Shown: positions 2,633 to 37,077, counted from the stretch's first letter. The stretch is 50,865 nucleotides of DNA from Actinomycetota bacterium (GCA_040905475.1 JBBDRM010000169.1:1-50865); one strand, 5' to 3'. Notes: generated by a model from the letters alone, not told the origin. Numbers and translations: made by a program.

Positions 2633-3585
2633 TTCCGGAAGCGCGGCAGGATCTCTCGCTCATAGAACGCGAAGAATCCGCGCTGATCCGGCCCGATCTG
2701 ATGGACGTACACGTGATCGTATCCCGCGTCCGTGTAGGTGCGGATCGCTTCGAGGTGCCGGTCGGGATCCGGCCCGCACGTGAGCTCTTTGCAGACATCT
2801 TCCTCGGATACGAGCTCCGAAGCCTGCTCGAAATGGCGTGGCAGGCGAAGCTCGACCGACAGCTCGCCGGGGAGCGCGCTGTTCGGCCACCACTTGCGCG
2901 CCGTCTTGCGCGCAGTCTTCTCGTCGGCGGCCCAGCACACATGGAGCATCCCGATCCGCGGCTTGTTCTCTCCGCCCGCCTTCGCGAACCGGCGGACGAC
3001 GTCGTCGTCGGGGACCGTCGATATGAGCCCGTCGTTCTCGCCGGCCAGCTCGGTCGCGCGCTCGCCCTTCGCGGCGACGTAGATCGGCGGCGGCTCCTCG
3101 GGAAGCGAATACACCCGAGCCTGCTCGACGGTGAAGTACCGTCCGCGATGGGTCGTCTGCTCGCCCGACCAAAGCTGGCGGATTACGTCGATCGCTTCGG
3201 CGAGCATCTCGACCCGCGCGTCGCCGGCCGGCCACGGTCCACCGATGATGTGCTCGTTGAGGTTCTCTCCCGTGCCGAGCCCAAGCCAGAAGCGGCCGGG
3301 GAGGAGCGCAGCGGCTGTGGCGGTCGCCTGTGCGACGATCGCGGGATGGATCCGGATGATCGGACAGGTGACTCCGGTGCCGATCGGGATCCGCTCCGTG
3401 ACCTGTGCGATGCCGCCGAGCACGCCCCACACGAAGGGGCTCTGTCCCTGACGATCGATCCAGGGATGATAGTGATCCGAGATCATCAAGAAGTCGAAGC
3501 CGGTCTGCTCGGCGGCGGCCGCGAACGCGACGAGGTCTTCCGCCGCGTGCTCTTCGCTCGAGAGCGCGTATCCGATCTTAGGCAT
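2629..3585 (-). CDS. LLM-class F420-dependent oxidoreductase (FGD-like)
   Basis: A luciferase-like monooxygenase-fold enzyme using coenzyme F420, closest in pattern to the F420-dependent glucose-6-phosphate dehydrogenase (TIGR03557-type) family. SDHYHPW at residues 36-42 corresponds to the FGD1 catalytic His/Trp segment and GTGENLNE at about 105-112 to the FGD1 segment with the catalytic Glu. VTCPIIRIHPAIVAQA is the usual cofactor-contact region. I chose the ATG at 3585 (MPKIGYAL, 318 residues) over an ATG 30 bases upstream because AAGGA sits five bases before it and homologues start there. The substrate cannot be read from sequence. It implies the host makes F420. Confidence 0.88.
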   Translation of the reverse strand: MPKIGYALSSEEHAAEDLVAFAAAAEQTGFDFLMISDHYHPWIDRQGQSPFVWGVLGGIAQVTERIPIGTGVTCPIIRIHPAIVAQATATAAALLPGRFWLGLGTGENLNEHIIGGPWPAGDARVEMLAEAIDVIRQLWSGEQTTHRGRYFTVEQARVYSLPEEPPPIYVAAKGERATELAGENDGLISTVPDDDVVRRFAKAGGENKPRIGMLHVCWAADEKTARKTARKWWPNSALPGELSVELRLPRHFEQASELVSEEDVCKELTCGPDPDRHLEAIRTYTDAGYDHVYVHQIGPDQRGFFAFYEREILPRFRN

Positions 3586-3605
3586 GTTCCTTCGGACCCG
3601 GTCAC

Positions 3606-3642
3606 GGACCGGCACCGGGCCTCTGGTCCCCGGTGCCGGTCC
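3606..3642. terminator. Strong stem-loop between DUF6458 and oxidoreductase genes
   Basis: A perfect 14-base inverted repeat (GGACCGGCACCGGG at 3606-3619, its complement at 3629-3642) around a 9-base loop. It lies directly after the DUF6458 stop and before the oxidoreductase start on the minus strand. There is no T-run, so it is either a GC-rich actinobacterial-type terminator or an mRNA-stabilising hairpin. Confidence 0.6.
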
Positions 3643-3649
3643 GATCGGG

Positions 3650-3886
3650 CTAGTGGTGGTGGTGAACGGGCTCGTGCACGTCTTCGGTGATGACGGTCTC
3701 GTCGCGACGCCGGTACCACGGCGACCAACTGCTCCAAATCATCATGGAGAGCAGAAGCCCGATCGCCCCGACGATCATGAGGATGACTCCGACGGCGTTG
3801 AGATCGATCCCGCGTGTGTCCGCCTCGACGGCGAACGCCAGGATCGCGCCGACGGCAAACAAGAAGATGCTGGCACCGATGCCCAC
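3650..3886 (-). CDS. DUF6458-family small membrane protein
   Basis: A 78-residue protein with two hydrophobic spans, about 4-20 (ASIFLFAVGAILAFAV) and 29-50 (LNAVGVILMIVGAIGLLLSM), then a charged tail ending in four histidines. The MGIGASIFL start and the VGVILMIVGAIGLLLS segment are typical of the actinobacterial DUF6458 family, whose function is unknown. Start is GTG at 3886 with AAAGGAGG seven bases upstream, which fixes it. The terminal HHHH is native sequence, not a tag, and could bind metal. It appears monocistronic, followed by the strong stem-loop at 3606-3642. Confidence 0.85.
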   Translation of the reverse strand: MGIGASIFLFAVGAILAFAVEADTRGIDLNAVGVILMIVGAIGLLLSMMIWSSWSPWYRRRDETVITEDVHEPVHHHH

Positions 3887-4061
3887 GGCTCGCCTCCTTT
3901 CGTCCGCCTTTCTTTACCCTCGGGATGTGATCCGCTAACCGCGCGCGAGCCGGGGCAAGGCTTGAAATGCGAAGCAGGCGCTGCACTCACCTGGGAGCCG
4001 AACGAATCCGCCGTGCGAGGAGATTAAGGAGGGCGGGCTCGAGCTTCAGGTGCCAGAGAGA

Positions 4062-4124: not shown

Positions 4125-6083
4125 CTAAACCGCGAACAGCTTCCCGAACATCCCAGGATGGAGGGAGCAGTAATAGTCGTAGACCGTGCCGGCCACGAGC
4201 GGGCCGAAGAAGTCCACCGGCGCCGTCCCCCCGAGACCGATCGGATCCTGACCGAACAGCGGAGGCTCGCCCGCCGCCGGCTTGTGATCCACGTCGTGAG
4301 GAGCGATATCGAGGTTCAAGAACGTGAGTTTGGGGTCGTCGGCCTGCACGACGGCGACCGGCGTCAGGTAGGTCGTCACGACGGCGCCCGGCGCGGCAAC
4401 CACGGCGGCCCCATTGCCGAGCCCGGGAAGCGCGGGTAGCTGCGGCAGCGACGGCAACCCACCGCCGCCGCCCGAGCTGGGCCGGAACGCGAGCACGTAC
4501 CCGCCTCCCCCAGCGACCGCCGTTCCGACCGTCGCGTAAACCGTATTGCGCGCGACGCTGACCCCGCCCCAGGTGACGGCCGGAGGCTGCACGCCCGGAC
4601 TGCCGATGAGGGGGATGACGGTGGCGGGGAGCCCGGTCGAAGCGTCGATGCCCCACAATAAGCCGCGGAAGTCGAGCGAGTAGACCACGCCGTTCGCGAC
4701 GGTGACCGGCGGACCCCAGTGCACGCCGTCGAGCATGGGGGCGATCCAGTTGAGTCCGCCGTCGTTCGCGCCGACCGACCACACGTAACCGGGGACGGTG
4801 ACCGGACCGTAGATCGACTCGCCGTCGTAGGCGGTCGAGCCGACGATTCCGCCGACGGAAGTCGGAGCCCCGACGAGGGACGTCCAGCCGTCCTGCTCCC
4901 CCATCGTCGCCGCGTCGAACGCGTGGTAGACGCCCGACTTCTGCCCGGCGCCGACGAACTGAACGCCGTCGCGCGTGAAGATGTTGGGCGAGGCGCCGAA
5001 ATCGAGGTCGATGTCTCCGCACGAGCCGATGCCTTGCGGATAGTACGGCGGGGGGTTACCGGGGATGTCGTAGCACGGGAGCGTCGAGAGCCCGCGCACG
5101 TACTCGTCGACGTTGCCCTTGTACGAGTCGACGACCTCGCCGAACGTCGCGCTCGTCTTGTCGAGGTCCACCTTGATCACGGCATTCGCGTTCTCGTGCT
5201 CCCCCTGCGGCTTGAAGGGGTTGGCCGTGCCGACGAACCCGACCTTCGCGTCCGGGTCGATCGCGGGCGTGGACCAGACGCCGGCGCCGGCGAACTCATC
5301 GTCCGGCTGCAACGGCGGGTGCACCGTGTAAGTCTTCTTGAGCACCACGCCGGTGACCGCATCGATCAGCACGAAGCCGCCCTGGAAGGCGTAGCGGTCG
5401 GCCTCGTCGCCGAGCTCTGCGGAGCCTCCAGAGACCCCCTCGAATACGACGCCGTCGAAGATCACGGGGCTGGAATACACGTCCGCGCCCGGCTGATCAT
5501 CGATGACGTCAACGGTCGTGGCGTCCGTACGCGTCCAGGACGACTGCCACAGGATCGCGCCGGTCGCTTGATCGAGCGCGATCACGTAGGGACCTTCGCA
5601 CTCCGTCCCGTTGCACGGATTGCGCGACGCGTGCGACACGGCGGCGAATAGCCGGCCGCCGTCGAGCCCGAGCGATGAGTTGATGCCCCCTCCATCCGGC
5701 ATCTGAGTCTTCCAGACGAGCTCGCCGGTGTCGGCGTTGATCGCGAACACCCAGCCGCCGTTCGAGCCGACGTACACGCATCCGTCCGCCACGATCGGCG
5801 TACCGGTGAAGTCGCCGTCCCCGCCGGCTTCGGTCGAGGAGAACGTCCATGCCGGTGCGAGCGAGCGCGCCTCCGCGGGTCCGATCGTCGTCTCGAGCGG
5901 CTGCGTGCGCGTGTTCGCGTAGTCGTGGCCGAAGGTCCGCCACTCACCGCCGGGCCATGGGTCACCGGTCGAGGTGGTCGTCGGCGCGCACGTCGCCGCG
6001 GCTACTCCGGCACCCGGAGCAACGACGACCGCCGCCAGAGCGACGGCCAGAAGGGCCACATGGAAGACCGCTCGTCTCGTCAT
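4125..6083 (-). CDS. Secreted PQQ-type beta-propeller protein with C-terminal cupredoxin domain
   Basis: A 652-residue exported protein. A Sec signal peptide spans about 1-30. Residues ~45-540 form a PQQ-binding-like beta-propeller with repeated W-motif blades (ADGCVYVGSNGGWVFAINAD, TGELVWKTQ, TGAILWQSSW), resembling polyvinyl-alcohol/alcohol dehydrogenase propellers. A Gly/Pro-rich linker at about 540-560 leads to a C-terminal cupredoxin (~575-652) with His in IAPHDV and the loop YYCSLHPGM, giving Cys639, His642 and Met645 as type 1 copper ligands with amicyanin spacing. The fusion suggests electrons pass directly from a quinone/propeller site to blue copper. It is the last gene of a four-gene operon, starting 4 bases after the amidohydrolase stop. 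Whether PQQ is really bound cannot be read from sequence. Confidence 0.85.
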   Translation of the reverse strand: MTRRAVFHVALLAVALAAVVVAPGAGVAAATCAPTTTSTGDPWPGGEWRTFGHDYANTRTQPLETTIGPAEARSLAPAWTFSSTEAGGDGDFTGTPIVADGCVYVGSNGGWVFAINADTGELVWKTQMPDGGGINSSLGLDGGRLFAAVSHASRNPCNGTECEGPYVIALDQATGAILWQSSWTRTDATTVDVIDDQPGADVYSSPVIFDGVVFEGVSGGSAELGDEADRYAFQGGFVLIDAVTGVVLKKTYTVHPPLQPDDEFAGAGVWSTPAIDPDAKVGFVGTANPFKPQGEHENANAVIKVDLDKTSATFGEVVDSYKGNVDEYVRGLSTLPCYDIPGNPPPYYPQGIGSCGDIDLDFGASPNIFTRDGVQFVGAGQKSGVYHAFDAATMGEQDGWTSLVGAPTSVGGIVGSTAYDGESIYGPVTVPGYVWSVGANDGGLNWIAPMLDGVHWGPPVTVANGVVYSLDFRGLLWGIDASTGLPATVIPLIGSPGVQPPAVTWGGVSVARNTVYATVGTAVAGGGGYVLAFRPSSGGGGGLPSLPQLPALPGLGNGAAVVAAPGAVVTTYLTPVAVVQADDPKLTFLNLDIAPHDVDHKPAAGEPPLFGQDPIGLGGTAPVDFFGPLVAGTVYDYYCSLHPGMFGKLFAV

Positions 6084-6087
6084 CGCT

Positions 6088-7854
6088 CTACGGTGCCCAA
6101 GGCTTCGAAGCCAGATCGCGGAACAGCTCGCGTCGGCTCCGATAGCCGTAGACGACGTTGGAGCGCATCGGCGCCGACTCGTTCAACGTGCCGAGATCGA
6201 CCACGTAGTCGTCCCGCGTCCGATGAAGGTCGTCGCAGTTGATCGCGTTGCGTTGGATATCCGGGTCGATCCCGTACGGAACGGCGGCGTTGCGCCCCAG
6301 GATCCCGTTACGGATCGTCCGTTCCGGCGTCGGTGCCTTGACCGTCGGGTCCTCGATGTCGCCTTCCAGCGCCCACGGCATCCCGTAGCTGTTGAAGATC
6401 TCGAGCGCCTCGGTCTCGTTGGCGCGCGGGAACTCGCGGAGCCGCGCGATCATGCCCTGAGGCGATCCGCCCCAGATGCTGTCGGTCCCCCACACGACGC
6501 GTTTCGGGCCGACGTACCTGATGAGCTTGCCGAGCACATGAGCCGCCTCGTACTGGTCCGACATCACGCCCGACCACACCGAGCCGAGCTCGGCGTAGAC
6601 GTTCGGGACGTTGCCGAAGGTCTTGCCGGCCGGAACGTAGTGAGACGCGTCGTGCCCCGCGTCGATGAGGCTCTTGATCAGCGAGTCGATGCCGCGTCCC
6701 TGCCGCGTGACGAAGTTCGGCGTCGGGTACGGCCCCTGCGAGTCTCCGATGTCGTAGCCCGAGTGGTACACGATGAACGCGATGTCGGGGTTCTGCTTCG
6801 CGGCCGGACCGACGTCGCGGGGAGACGCTGCCCGCTGGTCGAAGCCCGGGAGCGCGAACCCTTTGTGCGTCGCGATGACCTTCGGCGCGCCGAGCGTGTC
6901 GCCGACGTTACGGACCTGAGCGATGAACGCCTCCCCCACCCGGTCGTCGAACATCCAGCCGGAAGCGTTCGGTACGTCTCCCCAGGGGCAGTACGTTTTC
7001 CAGCCGCGCAGGATGTTCGAGCCGTCGGGTCCATACAAGCCGGCGATGTCCTCCATCGCATCGAACTCTTCCTGCATATACAGCGGGTCCGGCCCGACGG
7101 GAGCTTGGTTGGAGCCGTACGCGCCGCGGTTTGGCATCACGAACGCGTGCATGACGGCACGCTGCGTGCCGCCTGCCATCTCGTTGACCATGGCCACGGT
7201 CTCCGCGGCCTCCATGATCGGCAACGGCTGATTCTCGGGCGACGACGGCACGGCCGATAGCACGCACATGTTCGTCGCGCTGTCGAGGTACATCTCTTTG
7301 ACGTAGTGGTAGCGCGACAGGTTGGCCATCGGGTCGAGTTCCCCGGCGCCGAACCCGCGGATCGTCCCGTCCGGACGCATCCCCGGCGTGCCGCCGGTCG
7401 GCCCGGCCTGCGACCACGCCGCCGTGAAGAACACCTCGAAGGCCGGGTTCCTTACGCGCCAAAGGCCGTTGGCGTCGATGTGGTGGCTTTGGATGTCGAA
7501 GATGAATTCACCCGGCATGTTGCCGAGCGTCGCGACACCGGACGCGCCCTCCCACTCGAGGTCGCAGGGCTCGGTCGTCTCGGTGTTGTCGGCGCGTGCG
7601 TCGCCTCCGAACCGTAGCCCGACCTGATTGATCGCCCACAGACCGACGGTGTACGCCGCTGCCGTGCGCACGAACTGCCGGCGCGACATCCCCATCTTTC
7701 GGCGCAGGCGCTCGGACTCTTCGTTGGCCAGCCGCATGATGAGCTTCTGCTTCTCGGTCGGCGGCGGCGGGATGAACTCGCCGTTCGAATACGGCGTCAC
7801 GTCGAGCGGCAAATCTTCGGACAGATCCGGCCAGGAGCGTTTCCAGTTGAGCAT
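6088..7854 (-). CDS. Tat-exported amidohydrolase-family protein
   Basis: 588 residues. An unusually long ~55-residue N-region precedes a twin-arginine signal, SRRQFVRTAAAYTVGLW, at about 57-73, so the folded enzyme is probably exported. The mature part resembles Amidohydrolase_2 (PF04909) TIM-barrel hydrolases/decarboxylases: FDIQSHHID at the first strand in place of the classical HxH, VIATHKGFALPG, IAFIVYHSGY with a candidate metal His, and VVWGTDSIWGG with the conserved Asp near the C-terminus. The changed first metal motif leaves metal binding uncertain. The start at 7854 has a GAGGA six bases upstream. Gaps are 22 bases to the upstream cupredoxin gene and 4 bases to the downstream propeller gene. 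Confidence 0.8.
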   Translation of the reverse strand: MLNWKRSWPDLSEDLPLDVTPYSNGEFIPPPPTEKQKLIMRLANEESERLRRKMGMSRRQFVRTAAAYTVGLWAINQVGLRFGGDARADNTETTEPCDLEWEGASGVATLGNMPGEFIFDIQSHHIDANGLWRVRNPAFEVFFTAAWSQAGPTGGTPGMRPDGTIRGFGAGELDPMANLSRYHYVKEMYLDSATNMCVLSAVPSSPENQPLPIMEAAETVAMVNEMAGGTQRAVMHAFVMPNRGAYGSNQAPVGPDPLYMQEEFDAMEDIAGLYGPDGSNILRGWKTYCPWGDVPNASGWMFDDRVGEAFIAQVRNVGDTLGAPKVIATHKGFALPGFDQRAASPRDVGPAAKQNPDIAFIVYHSGYDIGDSQGPYPTPNFVTRQGRGIDSLIKSLIDAGHDASHYVPAGKTFGNVPNVYAELGSVWSGVMSDQYEAAHVLGKLIRYVGPKRVVWGTDSIWGGSPQGMIARLREFPRANETEALEIFNSYGMPWALEGDIEDPTVKAPTPERTIRNGILGRNAAVPYGIDPDIQRNAINCDDLHRTRDDYVVDLGTLNESAPMRSNVVYGYRSRRELFRDLASKPWAP

Positions 7855-7876
7855 GACTCGTCCTCGTGTCGAGACG

Positions 7877-8236
7877 TCAGATGACCCGGAGCGTGCCTTT
7901 CATGATCGGGTGGAGCGAGCAATAGAACTTGTACGAGCCTTTCTTCAGATTCTTCACGCCCACCACCGCGGTTTTCTTACCGATCGTGATCACGGCTGAG
8001 TAGAAGAGGCCGCTCGTCGAGCGGACGTCGTGCGGCGCGATGTCGAGGTTGACGAAGTTGAGCGCCTGGCCCTTCTGCAGGACAACGAACGGCGTGTAGT
8101 AAACCGGCGAAGCGGCGTTGCCGGGCCCGGCGACCACGAACGACGGCGCGGCGCTCGCCGGCGTGAACATCGCAAGCACGGCGACCACCGCAACGAGCGC
8201 TACCAACACGGACCCCCTGCGCTTGCTTGAATGCAT
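7877..8236 (-). CDS. Small secreted cupredoxin (plastocyanin/amicyanin-like)
   Basis: 119 residues with a signal peptide (about 1-29, ending ASAA) and one cupredoxin domain. Type 1 copper ligands are His69 (DIAPHDV), Cys106, His109 and Met112 in FYCSLHPIM, with amicyanin-like C-x2-H-x2-M spacing. It is very similar to the cupredoxin tail of the propeller protein encoded two genes downstream (shared FVNLDIAPHDV / FLNLDIAPHDV and YCSLHP), so the two domains share recent ancestry. It is probably a soluble electron carrier between the operon's larger enzymes. A GGGAGG-rich site precedes the ATG at 8236. It starts 12 bases after the upstream stop. Confidence 0.9.
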   Translation of the reverse strand: MHSSKRRGSVLVALVAVVAVLAMFTPASAAPSFVVAGPGNAASPVYYTPFVVLQKGQALNFVNLDIAPHDVRSTSGLFYSAVITIGKKTAVVGVKNLKKGSYKFYCSLHPIMKGTLRVI

Positions 8237-8248
8237 CCTCCTCCCTCC

Positions 8249-10150
8249 CTACTCCACGACTTGGAACACGCCGCGCATGAACGGATGGATGCGGCAGAAC
8301 AGCGAGAACGTGCCTGTCTGGGATGGCGTGAAGTCCCAGAAGAGCCCGTCCTGCAGCGCCTCGCCGGTCGACTTGTTCGGTCCGCCGAGCTGGCCGCTCG
8401 CCGGAGAGAAGAACAGGCCGTAGCCGATCTCGGTCGAGTCGAAGTCCATCGTGTCGTTCACACCCGTGCCGCCATTCGCGATCGGATACGAGATCCCGGT
8501 GCCACCGGTACACGGCTCCTTGCAGCGGGTCCAGGTGTGCCAGATGTCGAGCGGCGAATCGACGTTCCAGAAGCGCGCCGGCTTCCCGAGCTTCAGCTGC
8601 GGGACGCCCATAGTCCCCGCGAGACCGAGGTCCGCCTGCCCGTACGTGAACCCGACCGACACGAGCTGGTCGACCACCTGTCCGGACATCTCCGGAAGAG
8701 CCGCTCCCGCGGCGCCTCCGTGGTTACTGGCCTCGTCCATGTGTCCGTGAGTGACCTGACCACGGAGGCAGAGCCGCTTCGTCGCGCTCACTGCGTCGGG
8801 CGTGCACGAGGGCGTCGGCCAACCCGGAGCCGGCGTCGCGAGTTCGGGGAGGCCTTGATCCAAGATCACGTTGTCGTCGAAGACGTCGACGCCGGGCCCG
8901 TTGTGAAGCGCGTCTTCCCGCTCGGTCTCGGCCGGAGCGACCATCGCTACGACGATCCCCATGTTCTCGTACCAGGACGCGTTCTGGGAGTCGTAGATCG
9001 CGTTGAGCCGGAGGATGTCGCCCTCTTTGATCTTGACCTTCCAGCCGAGCGTCGAGCCGGTCACCGTCATCGAGAAGTCCCACGAGTCCAACTCGTCGTA
9101 GACGCCGGCCTCGATCTTCCCGTTGCCGTTGACGTCGTTGTGCTCCCACGGGACGGCCTCGGAGAAGAAGATCGGCTTCTCGACGCCGTCACGGACGAGC
9201 GACACCTCGTCGCGGATCCCGCCGGGGTGCAGGTGGCCGCCGATGCCGATCAGGGTCCCCTCGAAGTCCTTGGTCACCGTCCAATCGGCGCCCGGAACCG
9301 TGATCGGGACGCCCTGTTGCGGCGTCACATTGCCGTAGACGTCGTGGCGCGCGCAGTTCTGCTCGGGCCACGAGCACACGTGCAGTCCGGTGCCGGCGCC
9401 GATCGCCGGATCACCGAAGAGCGCCGAGTCCGTTGCGCCGAATCCGCGCTGCACGTTGAACACCGGGTTGCCGCCGGTGTCGGTGGCACCCGGGGCGATC
9501 GGCTTCTGCTGCACGTCGAGCCACACGGGCTTCACCGGCACGATGCCGAGCGCCTCGGCGTCTTCCTCCGCGACGAAATCGACGTCGTAGGTGATCCAGA
9601 CAGGCCGCGGCGTCTGGATCGCGTTGTGGACCATGTAGAGCAGCAGCCACGTATCGGTCGCGCCGACGTGCATGCCGTAGCCCGGCGGGAACGTGGCGAT
9701 CGTCTTCTCCTCACCGGCCGCGAAGAACGGGCCGCTGCCGTACTGCGGGTAGACGTTCAGCCAGGTCGCGTGGTGGAGGTGGATCTCCTCGATCGGCGGA
9801 GGCCGGTTGGTCACGTCCACGAGGTCGGGCCGGAACCGAACGATGTATCCGTCGTATGCCGGCTTCTGGATGGTGACCGGCTCGATGAGGACGTCGTTCT
9901 GGCCGGGCTTGGCCATGATCGGGCCGAAGACGAAGTGAAGACGCTTGCACTTGTCCCCGTAGCCGGACCAGAGCTTGGTCTCGTACTCGTTCGTGGAGGT
10001 GCACTCCCCCGCCGGGACGGGCTCGAGGAAGCCCGGCTCGGGAAGCGGGTGCGGCAGCGGATGGACCGGCGATGGAGCCGCCGCCGCGATACCGAGACCG
10101 GCGGCGACGATGCTACCGACCAGGAGCAAAACGCGGATACGCCCGTGCAT
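8249..10150 (-). CDS. Secreted SURNod19-like protein with C-terminal cupredoxin
   Basis: 633 residues from the ATG at 10150, chosen because a signal peptide (HGRIRVLLLVGSIVAAGLGI) begins there and GGGAGGG precedes it; an open upstream extension of 35 codons lacks both. The body resembles the plant/bacterial SURNod19 family (PF07712): EEIHLHHATWLN, then EEKTIATFPPGYG, VWITYDVDFV and GTLIGIGGHLHPGG. The paired HLHH and GHLHP motifs look like metal ligands, reminiscent of copper monooxygenase (PHM-type) folds. The tail is a cupredoxin (about 545-633): His in DIWHTW, then FCRIHPFM with Cys619, His622 and Met625. First gene of the four-gene operon; a candidate regulatory element lies ~100 bases upstream. 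Enzymatic activity is unknown. Confidence 0.75.
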   Translation of the reverse strand: MHGRIRVLLLVGSIVAAGLGIAAAAPSPVHPLPHPLPEPGFLEPVPAGECTSTNEYETKLWSGYGDKCKRLHFVFGPIMAKPGQNDVLIEPVTIQKPAYDGYIVRFRPDLVDVTNRPPPIEEIHLHHATWLNVYPQYGSGPFFAAGEEKTIATFPPGYGMHVGATDTWLLLYMVHNAIQTPRPVWITYDVDFVAEEDAEALGIVPVKPVWLDVQQKPIAPGATDTGGNPVFNVQRGFGATDSALFGDPAIGAGTGLHVCSWPEQNCARHDVYGNVTPQQGVPITVPGADWTVTKDFEGTLIGIGGHLHPGGIRDEVSLVRDGVEKPIFFSEAVPWEHNDVNGNGKIEAGVYDELDSWDFSMTVTGSTLGWKVKIKEGDILRLNAIYDSQNASWYENMGIVVAMVAPAETEREDALHNGPGVDVFDDNVILDQGLPELATPAPGWPTPSCTPDAVSATKRLCLRGQVTHGHMDEASNHGGAAGAALPEMSGQVVDQLVSVGFTYGQADLGLAGTMGVPQLKLGKPARFWNVDSPLDIWHTWTRCKEPCTGGTGISYPIANGGTGVNDTMDFDSTEIGYGLFFSPASGQLGGPNKSTGEALQDGLFWDFTPSQTGTFSLFCRIHPFMRGVFQVVE

Positions 10151-10248
10151 GAGTTGGCTCCCTCCCCAGGGTGGTGCCCGTCGCGCCCGACGTGGTCCGA
10201 TCTCAGGCTCGAAAGGATTTCCGACCGGACAGTAGCATTCCGGTTGGT

Positions 10249-10276
10249 TCGTCATGCCCCGGAAGGTTTCCTGCCC
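10249..10276 (-). promoter_or_regulatory. Repeated upstream element, copy 1 (GGGCAGGAA core)
   Basis: Read on the minus strand the site starts GGGCAGGAAACCTTCCG and ends ACGA. It lies ~100 bases before the SURNod19-like start. Two similar copies (12487-12513 and 27661-27687) precede two other exported-protein genes. It contains a GGAA/TTCC dyad. Confidence 0.45.
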
Positions 10277-10368: not shown

Positions 10369-12459
10369 CTACTGAAGGGCCAGCTTCACGAATCGAGCGG
10401 TGTACCAGGTGGGAGATGCGGGCGTGGTGATCGTGTGGACCCGGGTGCCCTTGTCCGACCACGAGACGAATTGATACTTGCCCTGCGGGCTCGGGGCCTC
10501 GATCTCGAACGCCCACCCGGACCAAGACGTGATCGTTACCAGCGCCTTGAACGTCTGACCTGCGACTTTCAGCGTCAGGCCGGTCGGATTGGTGTTGAAC
10601 GTCAGCGGCACCTTGATGGGCAGCACGGTCCGGCTTACCGTGCTGGAAAGCCCGGCCGAGTCGGTCGCCGTCAGGTACACGATCAGATGGCTGTTGGTCG
10701 CCGCCTGCAGATCCTCGGGCTCGGGAGTCGCGAAGGAGATGTTGTTGCCCGACACGGGGCCGACCCACGGATGCGTGTGATTATCGTGGAACCGGAGCAC
10801 GGTCCAGGTCAGCCGCGACGCCGGCACCGCGCCCTCTTGCTCGTCCGTCGCCGACCCGCTGAGCGTGAGCGTCTGGCCGACACGGAAGTAGGAACCCTGA
10901 GCGGGTGAGGCGATGGTGGGCACCGGCGGCGTGTTTCCCACCGCGACCAAGATCGTGTCGGGATCCGATGTGAGTCCCTCCGTATCGCGGACACGCAGCG
11001 ACGCGACGTAGCTGCCGTCGGCCGTGTAGGTGTGCGACAGGCCGGACCCTGCGGTCGTGGCGGTGTCGCCGTCACCGAAGTCCCACAGGTAGGTGAGCGC
11101 CTGCCCCTCCGGATCGGCGCTGTCCGACCCGTCGAAGGTCACCGTCAGAGGGGCCGGGCCGGAGGTCGGAGCCGCGGCGATCACCGCGACCGGGACGGGA
11201 GAGAAGGAGATACGGCGGATCTGGCCGCCTGCCTGGAAGGTGGCGTAGTAGAGCGACCGGGTCGGGTTCGGCGGACCGAACTCGAGGTGGGCAACCGTGC
11301 TGTTGCCCAGATCGGTCGCGAACGGCGTCATGGTGAACCCGCCGCCGGACGAGCCGAGCAGGAAGATCCCGCCGCAGACGAAGTCTCCGAACAGGTACTT
11401 TCCGAGGTACGTCGCCGGCCAGCCGCTGTCGGCCGGCACGAACGCTCCGCCGGTGATCGAGCTGCATCCCGTCGTGTGGGCGTAGGAGAAGATCGGATCC
11501 GTCATCCCGGCGGGAGGCGGCCCGCAATTGGTCACCGACCCCGTCTTACAGTGGCCCTCTCGGACGTTCCAGCCGTAGTCGGCTCCGGGCTTGGACTCGT
11601 CGATCTCTTCCCAGAGATTCTGTCCCACATCGTTGATGTAGAAGCGCGCACCGGCCGCGGCCGGGTCCATCGCGAAGCGGAACGGGTTCCGCAGGCCCCA
11701 GGCGTACGTCTCCTTGCACCACACGCCGGGCGCCGCGCTCCCGGTGATGCCGCATCGGGCCGAGGCCATGGCGTTGAACGGGTTGTCCGGCGGGATCGTG
11801 CCGTCGCGGTTCACGCGCAGGATCTTCCCGAGCATGACGTGCTTGTCGCGTGCCGCGTCGTTGAGCGTTGCGCATCCCGAGTTGCCGGCGTAGTCGCACC
11901 CACCATCGCCCACGCTCACGTAGAGCTTCCCGTCCTTGCCGAATCGGAGATCCCCCGCATTGTGATACCCGCCGTAGGACAAGATGTTGTCGATGAGCAC
12001 GACCTCGGACGATGGAGCGACGACGTTGGATGCGGGCAGAACGAAACGCGACACGCGGTTGACAGGAACGGTCGCCGAGTTCACGGGACACCCGGTGAAC
12101 TTCTTGAAGGTGTAGAAGAGGTAGATGAAGCGGTTGGTGGTGAAGCCCGGATCCACCGCGACCCCGAGCAGACCCCGCTCGCTGTTCGCGCACAGCTTCG
12201 ACGAAACGTCGAGCGCGGGCGTATCCAGCAACGTCCCGCTGGGGGTGAACACTCTGAGCTGGCCAAGCTTCTGCGCCACGAGCATCCGGCCGTCGGGCGT
12301 GAATGCGATCGCGGTCGGCTGGAACAGCGGCGCGACGAGCTCGTCGCCGAACCCGAACGGAACGGTGACGGCCGCCGACGCCATGGGTGCGAGGACCGAC
12401 ATCCCGAGCAAGATGACGGCCATGACGGAAACCGCTTGAATGGCCCGGCGTCCCCGCAT
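10369..12459 (-). CDS. Secreted PQQ-dependent sugar dehydrogenase with PKD domain
   Basis: 696 residues from the ATG at 12459, which has AGGGGGG upstream and opens directly into a signal peptide (about 1-29, ending MASA). Residues ~30-420 form a soluble glucose/sorbosone-dehydrogenase propeller: QPTAIAFTPDGRMLVAQKLG, SERGLLGVAVDPGF, GGYHNAGDLRFGKDGKLYVSVGDGG, GKILRVNRDG, WGLRNPFRFAMDP and WEEIDESKPGADYGWNVREG, all hallmark motifs. A PKD domain follows at about 422-510 (YLWDFGDGDTA ... HTYTADGSY), then one or two further Ig-like modules to the C-terminus. It would oxidise an extracellular sugar, possibly while bound to glycan through the PKD/Ig modules. No PQQ biosynthesis genes are in the window. 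It has its own terminator (10290-10315) and upstream element. Confidence 0.9.
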   Translation of the reverse strand: MRGRRAIQAVSVMAVILLGMSVLAPMASAAVTVPFGFGDELVAPLFQPTAIAFTPDGRMLVAQKLGQLRVFTPSGTLLDTPALDVSSKLCANSERGLLGVAVDPGFTTNRFIYLFYTFKKFTGCPVNSATVPVNRVSRFVLPASNVVAPSSEVVLIDNILSYGGYHNAGDLRFGKDGKLYVSVGDGGCDYAGNSGCATLNDAARDKHVMLGKILRVNRDGTIPPDNPFNAMASARCGITGSAAPGVWCKETYAWGLRNPFRFAMDPAAAGARFYINDVGQNLWEEIDESKPGADYGWNVREGHCKTGSVTNCGPPPAGMTDPIFSYAHTTGCSSITGGAFVPADSGWPATYLGKYLFGDFVCGGIFLLGSSGGGFTMTPFATDLGNSTVAHLEFGPPNPTRSLYYATFQAGGQIRRISFSPVPVAVIAAAPTSGPAPLTVTFDGSDSADPEGQALTYLWDFGDGDTATTAGSGLSHTYTADGSYVASLRVRDTEGLTSDPDTILVAVGNTPPVPTIASPAQGSYFRVGQTLTLSGSATDEQEGAVPASRLTWTVLRFHDNHTHPWVGPVSGNNISFATPEPEDLQAATNSHLIVYLTATDSAGLSSTVSRTVLPIKVPLTFNTNPTGLTLKVAGQTFKALVTITSWSGWAFEIEAPSPQGKYQFVSWSDKGTRVHTITTPASPTWYTARFVKLALQ

Positions 12460-12486
12460 CCCAACCCCCCTGGTGCCCATACCGTT

Positions 12487-12513
12487 TCGTCGCGCTCCGG
12501 GGGATTCCTGCCC
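12487..12513 (-). promoter_or_regulatory. Repeated upstream element, copy 2 (GGGCAGGAA core)
   Basis: On the minus strand the site starts GGGCAGGAATCCCCCGG and ends ACGA, 28 bases upstream of the sugar dehydrogenase ATG. It aligns with copies at 10249-10276 and 27661-27687, with the core-to-ACGA spacing conserved to within one base. Confidence 0.45.
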
Positions 12514-12571
12514 ATGACACGGCTCTCCGGCGCCCCGTATCCTTCCGCGGTCGCCTCGGGGAGGAGCTGAC

Positions 12572-13606
12572 GTGAGGATCGTCGTGAACGGCCGGTTCAT
12601 GCTCGGTCCCCCGACCGGCATCCATCGGGTCGGCAGAGGGCTCGTCGACGGGGCACGGGCGGCCGGGATCCCGTTCGAGGTCGTGGCCCCCAACGACGCC
12701 GACGACTCGAGAGCCGACCGGCGGACGTGGAGGCCGCCGGGTCGCGTCGGTGAGCACCTTTGGGAGCAGGTCGTCCTGCCCTGGGCGGCTCGGGGGCGGC
12801 CGATCATCTCTCTCGCCAACACCGCCCCGCTGGCGGCGAAGCGCAGCATCCTGATGACTCACGACCTGGGGTGGGACGTCGATCCACGGTGGTTCAGCCG
12901 CATCGGTCGGCTCTACGGCCGGCTCGCCTCCGCCTCCGCGCGGCGAGCCTCGGCTCTGCTTTCGCCGAGCGAGCAGATCCGGTCGGAGCTCATCCGCTCG
13001 GGTTTCTCCCCGGACCGGGTGTTCACGGTTCGAAACGCGCTCGAAGACGGCTTCGGCCCGGCGGCGCCGGAGGCCGTCGCGAGCGCGCGGAGCCGCCTTC
13101 GGCTCGACGCCCCGTACCTCCTCTGCGTCGGCTGGGCGGATCCTCGCAAGGACGTGGCGACCGCGGTCGCGGCGCATCTCCGGATCGTCGGACACGCTCC
13201 TCATCTCCTGGTGCTCGTCGGGGGACCGAACCCCAACTTCGCGCCGGTTCGCATGCCGGAAGCTCCCACCGTGCGTCGCACCGGATATCTCGACGGCCCC
13301 GAGCTGCGCGCCGTCCTAACGGGTGCGGCCGCGCTCGTCTTCCCCTCGCGATACGAGGGATTCGGCCTGCCGCCGGTCGAAGCACTGGCGTGCGGGGTGC
13401 CCGCCCTGGTCTCCGACATCCCCGTGCTGCACGAGAGCACCGGCGACGCGGCTCGGTTCGTGGCCGCCGGAGACGTCGACGCGTGGGCGAGCGCAATGAG
13501 CGACGCGCTCCGCGGCGAGGTCGTTCCCGGGCGGCCGCCGGACTGGCGGTGGGTAGACGCCGCCGAGCAACTACGGGCCGGACTGTCTTCGCTCGGGTTC
13601 CTGTAG
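12572..13606 (+). CDS. Glycosyltransferase family 4 protein
   Basis: 344 residues, GT-B fold. The N-terminal half has VVNGRFMLGPPTGIHRVGRGL, where the glycine-rich loop contacts the acceptor. The C-terminal GT1/GT4 domain has LCVGWADPRKDVATAV, then FPSRYEGFGLPPVEALACG at about 255-273 with the E-x7-E donor-nucleotide motif. Start is GTG at 12572 behind GGGAGGAG. It marks the left edge of the polysaccharide locus and faces away from the sugar dehydrogenase. The 3' end overlaps the convergent GT4 gene by 36 bases. Donor and acceptor sugars are unknown. Confidence 0.88.
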   Translation: MRIVVNGRFMLGPPTGIHRVGRGLVDGARAAGIPFEVVAPNDADDSRADRRTWRPPGRVGEHLWEQVVLPWAARGRPIISLANTAPLAAKRSILMTHDLGWDVDPRWFSRIGRLYGRLASASARRASALLSPSEQIRSELIRSGFSPDRVFTVRNALEDGFGPAAPEAVASARSRLRLDAPYLLCVGWADPRKDVATAVAAHLRIVGHAPHLLVLVGGPNPNFAPVRMPEAPTVRRTGYLDGPELRAVLTGAAALVFPSRYEGFGLPPVEALACGVPALVSDIPVLHESTGDAARFVAAGDVDAWASAMSDALRGEVVPGRPPDWRWVDAAEQLRAGLSSLGFL

Positions 13607-14740
13607 CGCGACCGCCTCCATCACGTCGTCGAGACGGTTCACGAATCTCGTCCATGTGAACTGCTCGGCGCGGGCACGTGCGGCCTCGCGAACGCCGGGG
13701 ATCGGGCCTTCGCCGGAGGTCGCCCGCGCGATCGCCTCGGCGAACGCTTCCGGCGTCGGAGGCACCAGCCAGCCGGTCTCGCCGGGAACGACGGTCTCGC
13801 GCGGGCCGCCGGAGTCCACGGCGACGACGGGAGCTCCGCACGCCATCGCCTCGAGCGGCACCATGCCGAAGTCCTCGTTCAATGTCGGAAGAACGAGCGC
13901 GGCGCAGCGACGATAGAGCTCCCGCAAGCGCTCCTGGGTCGGCTCCGTCTCGAACGTCACCGGCAACCCTCGCGCCTGCGCGCGGAGACCCTCGAGATAC
14001 GCCCCGTCGAGAGGGTCGACGCCGCCGGCTATCACCATCGACGCGGTCGAGCCGCGGCGATGCGCTTCGGCAAGTCCGGCGATCGCGAGTTCGATGTTCT
14101 TCCACCACTTCACCCGTCCGGCGACGAGCAGGAACCGCTCGCGAGGGTTCCCGTCGTCGGTGAACCATTCCAGGTCGACGCCGGGCGGAAGGACCTCGAC
14201 CAGACCCGACGGGCGCAGGCCGGCGCGCTCGGCGCGTCCGCGGATCTCCTCGCTGCTGACGAACACGTGCCGGAAGCGTCGCCACATCCGCCGGTCGGCG
14301 ATGTTGAACGCCGGGCCGAGAAGGGATAAGGCGAGCGCCTTACGAGGATCGCGGCGCTTGAGCGCCTGGTTCGTCGCCGGGTCGTGGAAGATCTTGAGCG
14401 GCGTGTGGCAGTAGCAGACCGAGGGCAGGCGGTTACGAGCGACGATGAAGTCGCCCAGCCCTTCCGAGGAGACCAGAAGTGCCCTGCTGCCGTCCTCGGG
14501 AAGGCGGGCTCTCCCCATCGTCCACGCAGCGTGGGCAAGCGGGCCGATAGACCGCTTCACCGACACTCTCGGTGACAGCTCGACGACGGGATTACGCGAT
14601 AGCTCCGGGAACGTTCCTTCCGCCTCGAATCGGTGGGTATAGAGGGTCCAGGAGTGTCTGCTACGACGGAAGAGCTCGACGAGGATCCGCTCGATCCCGC
14701 CTTGCAGGTAGGTCCAGGGATGGTAAACGGCCAGCCGCAT
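13571..14740 (-). CDS. Glycosyltransferase family 4 protein (WbaZ-like)
   Basis: 389 residues. Begins MRLAVYHPWTYLQGGIERIL with the GGIER acceptor loop. VCYCHTPLKIFHD at about 108-120 and the LLVAGRVKWWKNIELAI segment are typical of mannosyl/GlcNAc GT4 enzymes. The donor motif NEDFGMVPLEAMACGAPVVA lies at about 298-317 with E-x7-E. It overlaps the convergent plus-strand GT4 by 36 bases at its 3' end and shares a 211-base divergent region with the polyprenyl glycosylphosphotransferase. Confidence 0.88.
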   Translation of the reverse strand: MRLAVYHPWTYLQGGIERILVELFRRSRHSWTLYTHRFEAEGTFPELSRNPVVELSPRVSVKRSIGPLAHAAWTMGRARLPEDGSRALLVSSEGLGDFIVARNRLPSVCYCHTPLKIFHDPATNQALKRRDPRKALALSLLGPAFNIADRRMWRRFRHVFVSSEEIRGRAERAGLRPSGLVEVLPPGVDLEWFTDDGNPRERFLLVAGRVKWWKNIELAIAGLAEAHRRGSTASMVIAGGVDPLDGAYLEGLRAQARGLPVTFETEPTQERLRELYRRCAALVLPTLNEDFGMVPLEAMACGAPVVAVDSGGPRETVVPGETGWLVPPTPEAFAEAIARATSGEGPIPGVREAARARAEQFTWTRFVNRLDDVMEAVALQEPERRQSGP

Positions 14741-14951
14741 CGAAGGGCGAGTCTAGCCCGTCGACCATCTGAGGCTCCGGCAGCGGCCACAATTTCAACT
14801 TCACTCGCCGTCTCGACTGAATCACCCACAGTCGCCCGAACTTGCCGCTTAGAGAGGATTCCTTGGCTCTTCGGCGAATCCAGCGACAAGGGGATTCGTT
14901 ATCCGCGTGTAAGGCTCAGACGTAACCCGCGTACATGTACAGGGGACACGC
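14741..14951. promoter_or_regulatory. Divergent promoter region of the priming transferase
   Basis: 211 bases between a minus-strand GT4 and the plus-strand priming transferase. It holds a perfect palindrome GTACATGTAC (14931-14940) just before the AGGGGA ribosome site, and an inverted pair GGATTC (14856-14861) / GAATCC (14876-14881). No clear -35/-10 was identified. These dyads are candidate operators. Confidence 0.35.
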
Positions 14952-16427
14952 GTGACGACTGACATGGCCACAGGCACTGTAGAGGAACGCCTCGGGCGGC
15001 CTCACGCTGCAAAGCCGCAGGTCAAGACGCATGCCTCGGTCGCGGCCGGCGGGCGGTTCCCGCGCTGGCTCCGGGCCCTCGACACGGTTCACCGGGCGGA
15101 TGGGCCGCGGGTTCTTCCGATCGACGCTCTCGCCGTCGGCGGCGCCGCCGCGCTGGCCGGTGTGCCGGTGAAAGCGCTCGTTCCGCTCACGGCGGCCCTC
15201 ATAACGGTCCTTTACGTCTCTAACTGGTACCGCTTCCGGACGACCCTGGAAACGCAGGGCGTCCTCTGGGCGATCTCGCTGATCGGGATGCCGACGGCTC
15301 TCACGGTTCTCGTCGCGTTCGCCATCGCGCCGGACATAGGCTTGTGGCTGCGCAAGGACGTCGTTCGTTTCGGAGTTGTGGCGGCCTCGTCGCTCATCGG
15401 GATGCGACTCCTCACCTGGCTGACACTCGTCGAGGCTCGCCGCCGTGGCATCGGCCTTCGGCGCACGCTGATCGTCGGCGACAGCAAGCACGGCCGCCTG
15501 CTCTCACGCAAGCTCATGAGTTTCCCGGAGGTCGGGCTCCTTCCCGTCGCGATGTTGCCGACGGGCAACGGTCACGGCTACACGCGGTTCGTCCCTTCGT
15601 TCCCAGCCGCACAGGAGCTTTCGCGCGCGATCGCCGACGCCGACATCGAGCACGTCGTGCTCGCGCCCGACGGCAGCGACGAGGCGATCCTCGAGTGCGT
15701 GAAGGGATCCGAAGGGGACGTGTCCTTCTCGATGCTGCCGCCGATGTCCGAGTTCTTCCTGCATCCCGGGCTCGTCACGCAGGCCGGCGGGCTGCCGCTG
15801 ATCTCGCTCGGCAAGATCGCGCAACATCACCGAGCCCTCCCGGGCAAGCGTCTGTTCGACATCGTCGTCGGATCGCTGATCATGCTCGTGATCGGGCCGA
15901 TCCTCGGGCTCGTCGCGCTGGGCATCAAGGTGCTCGACCGGGGGCCGATCCTGTACCGGCAGCGCCGTGTCGGCCGCGACGGCGACGTTTTCCACATGCT
16001 CAAGTTCCGCTCTATGGTCGTCGGCGCCGAGCGGCTGATCATCGATCTCCGCGATCACAACGTCAGCAACGGACTGCTGTTCAAGGTGTACGACGACCCG
16101 CGCGTCACGAAGGTCGGGCGCCTGATCCGCCGGCTGTCGATCGATGAGCTGCCGCAGCTCTGGAACGTTATCCGCGGCGACATGTCGCTCGTCGGTCCCC
16201 GGCCGCTCGCCGTGGAGCCACAGGACTTCGGGCCGGTCGACAATCAGCGTCACGCCGTGCGCCCGGGGATCACCGGATACTGGCAGGTCTCGGGCTCGAA
16301 CGAGCTTACCTACGAAGAGATGATCAAGCTCGACTTCGCGTACATAGAGAACTGGTCGCTGTGGCTCGACATGCGGCTCCTCGTCCGCACGATCCCGGCG
16401 CTGCTCCACCGACGCGGCCCGTCGTAA
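14952..16427 (+). CDS. Polyprenyl-phosphate glycosyl-1-phosphate transferase (priming enzyme)
   Basis: Transfers a sugar-1-phosphate to undecaprenyl phosphate, the first step of repeat-unit assembly. 491 residues with several membrane spans at ~55-160, a central CoA-binding-like domain (RTLIVGDSKHGRLL at about 171-184), then the catalytic bacterial-sugar-transferase domain (~288-491): KRLFDIVVGSLIMLVIGPI, PILYRQRRVGRDGDVFHMLK, KFRSM, DELPQLWNVIRGDMSLVGPR and RPGITGYWQVSG. Start is GTG at 14952 with AGGGGA upstream; an ATG at 14964 is the alternative. All catalytic motifs are intact, so this is the likely initiator for the glycan assembled by the locus. Confidence 0.93.
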   Translation: MTTDMATGTVEERLGRPHAAKPQVKTHASVAAGGRFPRWLRALDTVHRADGPRVLPIDALAVGGAAALAGVPVKALVPLTAALITVLYVSNWYRFRTTLETQGVLWAISLIGMPTALTVLVAFAIAPDIGLWLRKDVVRFGVVAASSLIGMRLLTWLTLVEARRRGIGLRRTLIVGDSKHGRLLSRKLMSFPEVGLLPVAMLPTGNGHGYTRFVPSFPAAQELSRAIADADIEHVVLAPDGSDEAILECVKGSEGDVSFSMLPPMSEFFLHPGLVTQAGGLPLISLGKIAQHHRALPGKRLFDIVVGSLIMLVIGPILGLVALGIKVLDRGPILYRQRRVGRDGDVFHMLKFRSMVVGAERLIIDLRDHNVSNGLLFKVYDDPRVTKVGRLIRRLSIDELPQLWNVIRGDMSLVGPRPLAVEPQDFGPVDNQRHAVRPGITGYWQVSGSNELTYEEMIKLDFAYIENWSLWLDMRLLVRTIPALLHRRGPS

Positions 16428-20094: not shown

Positions 20095-21108
20095 GTGCTC
20101 GATAGGAAGCGCACCCCAGCGCCAGTCATCTTCATCTGCGGGAAGGGCCGGAGCGGTAACACCCTCGTCGGCCGCATACTCAACGAGCGTGGCGACGTCG
20201 CGTTGCTTCAGGAATTGCACTTCTTCGGGGGGCTCTGGTCGCCTCGTTCAGGAGTCGTGCGGCTTCGTCGAGATGAGGCCACGACCCTCGCGACGGAGCT
20301 CTTTCGGCGCGCGCGGAGATTCCTGAAGGATAACGATATCGACACGAAAGCTCTCGAAACCGAAGCATCCATGCTCGTATCAAACCTTCCCGACGACGCG
20401 TTGACAGCTCCCGCGCTCTTTCGCGAGGTCCTATCGCACGAGACCTCTTCTCGCGGGAAGGCCATCTGTTGCGAGCAGACCCCGCGCAACGTCTTCTTCG
20501 TGGACAAGATCCTCGACCTCTTTCCCGACGCTCGGGTGGTCGTAGTCGTGCGCGATCCCCGCGGCGTCCTCGCGGCTCAGAAGGAAAGGTTGAAGGCGAT
20601 GGAGCGCTGGCGGCATGCGGTACCCGCCGAGCGACGGCGATGGCGGATAAATTCCCATCCCGTCCTCGTCGCCCAGCAGTGGCGGGTGGCCGTACGGGCG
20701 GGCGAACGCCACGCCGGCGACGAACGCGTGTTCGTTCTGCGCTTCGAGGATCTGGTCGAGCGTCCTCGAGCCGTCCTGCCGCGTCTCTGCGACTTCCTCG
20801 GATTCGGGTTCGACGAGAGCATGCTCGACGTGACCCACAGTCGCCCGTATGCCGAGCTCCGCGGCCGCCGAGGCCTCGACCCGCACGAGGCTTTTCGGTG
20901 GCGCAGGCGTCTCAGCCCGACAGAGGTCTTCCTCTGCGAGCTCGTGGCCCGGCGCGTGATGAAGCGTCTCAGCTATGAGCCGGTAGGTGCTCGTCCAAAC
21001 CCGGTTGAGCTCGCACGTGCAGCTGCCGTCTTGCCCTTCTATGCCTTCGCCGCGCTGACGCTCAACCGTTCTTACTACTACCAGCTCACCCGTTGGCTTC
21101 GCCGCTGA
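20095..21108 (+). CDS. Sulfotransferase (Sulfotransfer_3-like)
   Basis: 337 residues. Transfers sulfate from PAPS to an acceptor hydroxyl or amine. The 5'-phosphosulfate loop is FICGKGRSGNTLVGRIL at about 13-29, and the 3'-phosphate motif is VVVVRDPRGVLAAQKE at about 147-162. VFVLRFEDLVERPRAVLPRL is the typical C-terminal motif (YE/FEDL..P). Closest in pattern to the GxGRSGT 'sulfotransferase 3' group, unlike the KxGTTSL group later in the locus. Start is GTG at 20095 with only a weak ribosome site. It stands alone between non-coding DNA and a convergent GT2. Confidence 0.85.
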   Translation: MLDRKRTPAPVIFICGKGRSGNTLVGRILNERGDVALLQELHFFGGLWSPRSGVVRLRRDEATTLATELFRRARRFLKDNDIDTKALETEASMLVSNLPDDALTAPALFREVLSHETSSRGKAICCEQTPRNVFFVDKILDLFPDARVVVVVRDPRGVLAAQKERLKAMERWRHAVPAERRRWRINSHPVLVAQQWRVAVRAGERHAGDERVFVLRFEDLVERPRAVLPRLCDFLGFGFDESMLDVTHSRPYAELRGRRGLDPHEAFRWRRRLSPTEVFLCELVARRVMKRLSYEPVGARPNPVELARAAAVLPFYAFAALTLNRSYYYQLTRWLRR

Positions 21109-26174: not shown

Positions 26175-27617
26175 TCAGGGGAGTTTCAAAGGGATCTTGA
26201 TCGGCAACAGACTGCCCTGGTTCTGCGAATCGCCCCATGGCTGCGGGTTGTGGAAGGCCGAGGTCCATCCCGCGGTCTGGTTGAGCGCCTTCGCGCCGAA
26301 TTTCTCGCTCGGGCTGATGTGGGACGCCTCGAACCATTCGTTCCACGAGGTGATCAGCATCCACTCAGGCTGAGATGTGAACGCTGCGCTCCACGACTGA
26401 TCGTAGCGCGCCCCGTCCTTGCGGTCCTGGTGCTGCGGGAAGAGCGGGGTCGTGTAGGACATGTTCTGGCCGGGCGAGACCGGCGCTGCCCACAGCCGTT
26501 GCTTCACGACGGGGTTGATCTGGGCTTCGTAGCGGAGGTGCCGCTGGGCCGTCCCGAAGGTATTTACCATGCCGGTGTAGCTCAGGCCATTTGGGTTGTA
26601 GAGGTAAGTGCCGTCGAGACCCCACTCCCAGGCAACAGGCTCGCCCATGTAGAAGGGGTTGTATCCGGCGGCCGCGACCGCGGCGCGAACGGCGGCGAGG
26701 TTCGCGATGCCCAACTTCCAAGCGCCGTACAGCCACAACACAGGGCGCGTTCCCACTTTCAGGAAGGCGGGGTTCGAGGAGCGCTGAAGCGCGAGCTTCA
26801 TCGTGTCGACGATCTTCGTCAGATCGAAGGCGCCCGACGATGTATCGAACGCGAGCAGCTCGATCACTGGGGTGACGTACATGGAACGAGACGCCAGCTC
26901 CGACATGACCACGTCGAACCTCGCCGTGTGATCACCCACGTCGTCCCAGGACACAACGAACCCGTCGATCCCAGCGGTGTGCGCTTGGTCCACCATCTTG
27001 GAAACCTCGCTGGGGGTTTTGGTGTCGTATGGCCCGGTGGGGGTGTCGTACCATGGTCCCTTGTCGAACGAGGCTTCGCTGAACCAGGGATAGTAGAACG
27101 AGAGCACCAGGCGACGAGGATCCATGCGCGGGATCGTGTAACCGCCCGAGACCAACGTCGACTTGGAGACGTTGGCGGACACGATGTAATCGCCGCTCGT
27201 CTCGTAATTGTTGAGGCTCAGGATCTGCACGGGGTTGGCGTTGTTGATCCGGTAAAGCTTCATGTGGGCCTGACCGATCTTGCCCTTCGCCAGCGAGATC
27301 GTGAATGAGCTGGCGTAAGCCTCGACCATCATGGCGACCGTTGCCGAGACGGGTTGGTTGTCCCCGGGCCCGGCGACGACGATGGTGTCCGGGCCGCGGC
27401 TCACCGTGGCTCCCGAACCGAGGACCTCCGTGTAGTAGCTCTTGATCCAGCCGTCGACGATCCGCACGGACTGCCAGTCGCCGGTTCCCGATATCTCGAC
27501 CCGGAGCCTCGTCAGGTACGGACCACTCGCAGCCGCCGGCTGGATACCCACGCTGGTGAGAAGCAGAGCAACCACAGCAAAAACCGCCGCAAGCCTATAC
27601 CGCACCAGTACCCCCAT
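26175..27617 (-). CDS. Secreted glycoside hydrolase family 99-like protein
   Basis: 480 residues with a signal peptide (about 1-31, VFAVVALLLTSVGIQPAAAS). Residues ~32-160 are a beta-rich domain with no motif I recognise. The C-terminal ~320 residues resemble GH99/GH99-like (also GH71) enzymes: RRLVLSFYYPWFSE, a DGFVVSWDDVGD segment, RPVLWLYGAWK, YMGEPVAWEWG and MLITSWNEWFEASHISPS, where SWNEWFE is the family signature holding candidate catalytic acids. It may trim or release the extracellular glycan, or process host or environmental mannans (inference). A copy of the repeated upstream element lies 45-70 bases before the ATG. Confidence 0.78.
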   Translation of the reverse strand: MGVLVRYRLAAVFAVVALLLTSVGIQPAAASGPYLTRLRVEISGTGDWQSVRIVDGWIKSYYTEVLGSGATVSRGPDTIVVAGPGDNQPVSATVAMMVEAYASSFTISLAKGKIGQAHMKLYRINNANPVQILSLNNYETSGDYIVSANVSKSTLVSGGYTIPRMDPRRLVLSFYYPWFSEASFDKGPWYDTPTGPYDTKTPSEVSKMVDQAHTAGIDGFVVSWDDVGDHTARFDVVMSELASRSMYVTPVIELLAFDTSSGAFDLTKIVDTMKLALQRSSNPAFLKVGTRPVLWLYGAWKLGIANLAAVRAAVAAAGYNPFYMGEPVAWEWGLDGTYLYNPNGLSYTGMVNTFGTAQRHLRYEAQINPVVKQRLWAAPVSPGQNMSYTTPLFPQHQDRKDGARYDQSWSAAFTSQPEWMLITSWNEWFEASHISPSEKFGAKALNQTAGWTSAFHNPQPWGDSQNQGSLLPIKIPLKLP

Positions 27618-36945: not shown

Positions 36946-37077
36946 AGGATCCTCCTATCGAAGCGTCCAGCCCCCACAGCCTACCCCGGGCGGGCCGTGC
37001 ACCTTTCCCCCGGGCGACATCGCCCATGCGTTAGCGACTCGGCCCGCGGAGCCCGCGGTAGTCTCACTCCCACGCCT

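Follow-up and report, generated by a model that had tools for sequence, protein, structure and literature searches.

What chemistry would bring three blue-copper domains, one free-standing and two as tails of larger proteins, into a single set of four exported proteins? The question is posed by a locus on a 50,865-nucleotide stretch of DNA from an Actinomycetota bacterium (GCA_040905475.1, JBBDRM010000169.1:1-50865), hereafter the window, to whose full length all unlabelled coordinates refer. Calling open reading frames (ORFs) on the window delineates four close-packed genes on the minus strand. The first (8249-10255) codes for a SURNod19/PHM-like protein of 668 aa with a C-terminal cupredoxin; residue numbers below are those of this ORF, though its start may be the internal Met36 at 10150, which opens the signal peptide, makes a sensible start, and is where an earlier reading of this DNA from the sequence alone (the sequence-only reading) had placed the end of the operon. 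It is followed by a free exported cupredoxin of 119 aa (7877-8236), a Tat-exported amidohydrolase-like protein of 588 aa with an MSRRQF Tat motif (6088-7854), and a quinoprotein-type beta-propeller of 652 aa with its own C-terminal cupredoxin (4125-6083). The intergenic gaps of 12, 22 and 4 bp are exactly those given in that reading, and the secretion signals support its view of an exported redox operon. What it missed is the probable PHM/DBM type of the first protein, whereby the operon appears to add two predicted copper sites of that class to the three blue-copper sites already noted; hence, the oxidative step, which it had pictured as a substrate oxidation passing electrons to blue copper, probably includes O2 activation.

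A predicted PHM/DBM-like core in the first protein

The first protein gives no Pfam match on its own, and a search of PDB with its sequence returned only weak amicyanin matches and chance lactamase matches. Scanning the genome contigs with the single sequence yielded zero matches, whereas an alignment-based scan succeeded, recovering 80 loci; together with relatives these furnished a set of homologues, nearly all from Actinomycetota, of which 50 were aligned. The histidines that never vary in this alignment are five from the N-terminal region (H161, H162, H210, H341 and H343) and one from the cupredoxin (H573). Together with M432, the five make up a HH...H...HxH...M pattern present in 50 of 50 sequences. 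In peptidylglycine alpha-hydroxylating monooxygenase (PHM), copper is held by H107, H108 and H172 at the CuH site and by H242, H244 and M314 at the CuM site. As the order of the conserved residues (HH, H; HxH, M) equals that of the PHM ligands, H161 and H162 (9775-9770, minus strand) with H210 (9628-9626) are the predicted CuH ligands, and H341 and H343 (9235-9227) with M432 (8962-8960) the predicted CuM ligands, all within a PHM/DBM-like core at 8918-9958 on the same strand. We use SUR for a SURNod19/PHM-like gene with cupredoxin and L- and G-numbers for the loci and genomes compared; at L087 and L088, each with two SUR copies in opposite orientation, the first His of an HxHH motif is Met and the HH pair is retained, which fits the HH pair as copper ligands.

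The AlphaFold2 model of the protein (pLDDT 81.8, pTM 0.86) points in the same direction. When it was compared with PDB using Foldseek, ranks 1-31 were all dopamine beta-hydroxylase (DBH) or PHM structures (probability 1.00, E from 2e-9 to 6e-7; about 10% identity), and the unrelated folds that come after rank 31 score far lower. That the first protein folds like PHM/DBM, with both of the PHM copper sites predicted, is thus well supported by ligand invariance and structural modelling.

Kinship with SURNod19 and plant Nod19

A Pfam scan for PF01082 and PF03712 over 50 family members reached neither cut-off, giving one weak match among the 50, to PF03712 only (E 0.24). Profile-profile comparison with bacterial members of PF03712, the copper monooxygenase C-domain, gave a probability of 86 and an E-value of 4.8e-6, and in that alignment the HMH of the CuM motif falls on the HLH of the SUR family. 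The sequence-only reading had called the protein SURNod19-like. While the window protein itself has no match to PF07712 (SURNod19), eight of 50 relatives do (best E 1.5e-4), and hhalign against bacterial PF07712 members returned a probability of 100 (E 2e-40) over 259 columns that cover all six ligand positions. The same six residues are found in L101-L103, bacterial sequences above the PF07712 cut-off; hence, the label is correct as to kinship, and SURNod19 itself seems to belong with the PHM/DBM-like copper proteins. The PF07712 members examined, at 307-346 aa and without a cupredoxin, differ from the longer, tailed proteins considered here.

The family includes plant MtN19/Nod19 in addition to the bacterial short forms. 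Targeting of the plant Nod19 gene by miR398 has been validated, and the gene goes up under copper excess and down under copper deficiency (PMC3882225); plant Nod19/SURNod19 is described as copper- and stress-regulated, with a function called unknown or elusive (PMC3882225, PMC10326430). Our literature search, incomplete for subscription journals, found no paper linking SURNod19/Nod19 to PHM.

Three amicyanin-like copper domains

The C-terminal cupredoxin of the first protein (8252-8665, minus strand) provides H573, C654, H657 and M660, and the tail of the propeller spans 4128-4418 on the same strand. The C-x2-H-x2-M loop reported earlier for all three copper domains is there (CRIHPFM, CSLHPIM and CSLHPGM), and with the upstream His each has the type-1 ligand set by sequence. 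That His is kept in the homologues: H573 in 50 of 50, and its counterpart in all propeller tails, as PHDV, RHDV, RHNV, AHDV or QHDV. The tail is likewise conserved, being found in all 48 homologues of the first protein that reach the C-terminus. These sites are unlikely to be chance since the free cupredoxin scores 36.8 bits against Pfam Cupredoxin_1 (cut-off 27) and the tail profiles retrieve amicyanin from PDB, at E 7e-6 for the first protein's tail and about 3e-10 for the propeller profile. Against the amicyanin equivalog TIGR02657 the free cupredoxin reaches 31.8 bits, under the 110.2-bit cut-off. It is related to the propeller tail, but at 43% identity over 90 aligned positions the two are hardly the near twins they were taken for.

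The propeller and the amidohydrolase-like protein

The propeller exceeds the Pfam PF01011 cut-off (49.6 versus 26.7 bits) and its profile aligns to quinoprotein alcohol dehydrogenases; against the PQQ alcohol dehydrogenase model TIGR03075 it reaches 55 bits, for a cut-off of 480. In an alignment with six canonical actinobacterial quinoprotein alcohol dehydrogenases, it retains four residues at the cofactor site (Trp, Asn, Glu and Lys), the Glu position being approximate in two members. Going by the roles in methanol dehydrogenase, we take the Trp for the stacking residue, the Asn and Glu to bind the metal and the Lys to contact PQQ, and the canonical Asp to be catalytic. A dehydrogenase function is plausible on these residues, and an external source might supply the PQQ.

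The amidohydrolase-like protein remains below the Amidohydrolase 2 (PF04909) cut-off, at 22.8 versus 26.4 bits. All eight such sequences share Q122-x-H124, H330, H364 and D458 without change, and the top Foldseek matches of its poor AlphaFold2 model (pLDDT 53) include decarboxylases of the amidohydrolase superfamily and the C-C hydrolase LigY. Distant relatives (~30% identity) in seven genomes do not lie near the other operon genes.

Recurrence and natural fusions

The same genes occur together in divergent Actinomycetota. With this co-occurrence and the conserved upstream His, neither of the two conditions that the sequence-only reading had set for its own refutation came true. At L012 (G010) the order is SUR, propeller, cupredoxin, SUR, amidohydrolase; G001 (L013/L026) has an amidohydrolase, two SUR genes, a cupredoxin and two propellers; and L015, L017, L018, L020 and L025 share the order SUR, amidohydrolase, propeller. 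An amidohydrolase and a cupredoxin-tailed propeller lie at a contig end in G003. L023 (1405 aa) and L024 (1263 aa) are single frames that join SUR core, cupredoxin, propeller and cupredoxin in one polypeptide, for L023 also by Pfam. In both G010 and G001, the profile of propeller plus tail crosses one in-frame stop into the "free" cupredoxin; thus, propeller and cupredoxin there are split versions of a fused gene. The operon and fusion proteins fall within one clade of 12 (support 98/97), whose remaining members are L016 and L027, on contigs that end close downstream, and L022.

The gene directly downstream of SUR at L022 (L022:3696-5105) joins a cupredoxin to an NHL-repeat propeller, another pairing of cupredoxin and propeller. 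A MauG/di-haem peroxidase-like cytochrome stands between the SUR and amidohydrolase genes of L020 (L020:11858-12868). Five related operons carry, after the amidohydrolase gene, a small protein without Pfam match (~185 aa in L013 and L015), at L013:6867-7421 (minus strand; a signal-like start suggests export), L015 ~6752-7246, L017 ~13759-14214, L018 ~3551-4021 and L020 ~14729-15283; it is absent from the window's genome. That genome has a second SUR gene, L011:9959-11818 (G000:C10), with no partner genes nearby. Surveying the neighbours of solo homologues brought out no strong shared partner, with branched-chain ABC genes at 11 loci, SDR at six and YceI-like genes at five.

A proposed mechanism and its rivals

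We propose that the operon specifies a secreted copper monooxygenase of PHM/DBM type that is fed by a cupredoxin and coupled to the quinoprotein-like propeller; a partner of amidohydrolase fold would cleave C-C bonds or decarboxylate. We hold this reading to be about as likely as not. Briefly, the first protein would hydroxylate a substrate outside the cell at a C-H bond, using O2. Its fused amicyanin-like cupredoxin would supply the electrons in place of ascorbate, from which the animal PHM/DBM enzymes draw theirs; the universality of the tail among the homologues is what points to this donor. The electrons would originate at the propeller, through oxidation of an alcohol that may be the very product of the monooxygenase, and may travel via the propeller's own cupredoxin tail, the free cupredoxin, or both; the coupling is supported by the single-chain fusions of the two enzymes. 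Finally, in what is the weakest step, the Tat-exported protein might cleave or decarboxylate the oxidized product. The logic of a quinoprotein driving a copper monooxygenase has a precedent in unrelated proteins, since in fungi a secreted PQQ pyranose dehydrogenase drives copper LPMOs (PMC5960967).

Several observations weigh against this scheme. Over its whole chain the first protein reaches modest TM-scores, 0.23-0.31 when normalised to the query and at most 0.53 when normalised to the target, and we therefore claim the likeness of fold domain by domain. At 67 of the 80 PHM-like/cupredoxin loci no propeller or amidohydrolase is seen in the sequence available, some loci being short, which indicates that the partners are clade-specific. 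For the amidohydrolase-like protein, the model is poor and a Gln replaces the first metal His of HxH in all eight sequences; with this His missing and with C-C hydrolases and decarboxylases as its apparent kin, the hydrolysis first envisaged is uncertain, and we suggest, with low confidence, that it cleaves C-C bonds or decarboxylates its substrate instead of hydrolysing amides. The "PQQ-type" label is weakened too, as the propeller has neither the canonical catalytic Asp nor the two vicinal Cys in the alignment with the six canonical members, and a search for PQQ synthesis genes gave no pqqC over cut-off in eight carrier genomes and no pqqB in nine. The pqqC-like matches in G000 and G001 (62 and 59 bits, cut-off 240), which lie beside sdh genes, were rejected as PQQ synthesis genes. 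A pqqC/TenA-like frame just after an sdhA-like ORF, adjoining succinate dehydrogenase genes, is seen in two related genomes (L104 ~8072-8689, L105 ~7858-8499).

The missing catalytic Asp and Cys pair, the lack of pqqB/pqqC over cut-off in the carriers and the MauG/CCP-type diheme protein inside the L020 cluster would all suit an arrangement in which the PHM-like protein does act as a copper monooxygenase but the propeller is an empty or non-PQQ scaffold, the cupredoxins being fed by another donor (e.g., a diheme cytochrome) with no quinoprotein-driven cycle. We consider this unlikely, if deserving attention: the four cofactor-site positions named above (Trp, Asn, Glu and Lys) are kept, PQQ can be scavenged, and nature has fused the propeller to the monooxygenase-like protein. 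Having five or more predicted copper sites, the operon might instead be a module for copper storage, sensing or detoxification, whose PHM-like and cupredoxin domains merely bind extracellular copper, in keeping with the copper-responsive plant Nod19 and its control by the copper-regulating miR398 (PMC3882225). However, enzyme-type partners (amidohydrolase and propeller) are conserved alongside, type-1 sites serve electron transfer and not storage, and neither a copper exporter nor a regulator came to light next to the genes, albeit with no systematic search made, all of which renders such a module improbable. There is also a slim chance that the PHM-like protein is a copper oxidase, peroxygenase or lytic enzyme acting on a polymer, as opposed to a classical hydroxylase, with the quinoprotein giving it electrons or H2O2; secretion, the soil lineages and the logic of the fungal dehydrogenase and LPMO (PMC5960967) accord with this, but the fold and ligands are those of PHM/DBM rather than LPMO, and the Pfam scan of the operon proteins returned no carbohydrate-binding domains.

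Beyond the operon there is a wider reading, which we advance tentatively and with slightly less than even confidence: that SURNod19, including plant Nod19, is an unrecognised branch of PHM/DBM; that its bacterial branch swapped ascorbate for a built-in blue-copper donor; and that one clade was wired to a quinoprotein dehydrogenase, sometimes in a single polypeptide. The result would be a secreted, soluble monooxygenase-dehydrogenase cycle, in its logic comparable to methane monooxygenase with methanol dehydrogenase.

Genomic surroundings

A glucose/sorbosone dehydrogenase-like propeller with a PKD domain (10369-12849, minus strand) lies 113 bp upstream of the operon; we left it out as a fifth member because the recurring clusters lack a counterpart, save for one weak, distant match at L030. 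Further along, ~13571-39029 resembles a surface-polysaccharide region with several glycosyltransferases and methyltransferases, a GH99-like protein (26175-27617) and two sulfotransferases, unusual in such a region (20095-21108 and 36208-38031).

Relation to known systems and significance

Animal copper hydroxylases of the PHM/DBH type, secreted type II copper monooxygenases, make noradrenaline and amidate peptide hormones. The first protein would share with them the fold of two paired jelly-roll domains, the CuH (HH, H) and CuM (HxH, M) pattern and secretion, but it lies under the PF01082/PF03712 cut-offs, has longer loops, and bears a cupredoxin where they depend on ascorbate. Its loop also recalls amicyanin, the periplasmic carrier for a quinone-type dehydrogenase; here, however, the tails are fused to enzymes and no methylamine dehydrogenase was identified. 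The fungal pair (PMC5960967) likewise has a quinoprotein feeding a secreted copper monooxygenase, yet the folds of both partners differ, and cytochrome b serves there as the wire in place of cupredoxins. Pathways in which a PQQ alcohol or polyvinyl-alcohol dehydrogenase precedes a hydrolase have in common the propeller fold and extracellular oxidation followed by cleavage, whereas the present propeller lacks their vicinal Cys pair and catalytic Asp, the cleaving enzyme is amidohydrolase-like, and a monooxygenase-like step is added.

For soil actinobacteria, these results point to a secreted set in which a PHM-like protein with a blue-copper tail stands beside a copper-tailed quinoprotein or forms one chain with it. 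The bacterial forms would be copper monooxygenases of the PHM/DBM class that carry their own protein electron donor, and the single-chain fusions lead one to expect a secreted electron circuit complete in itself. The PHM/DBM assignment and the conserved copper ligands make the question of plant Nod19 function directly testable; the operon thus suggests both how bacteria could power a PHM-type enzyme and what the plant Nod19 family might do.

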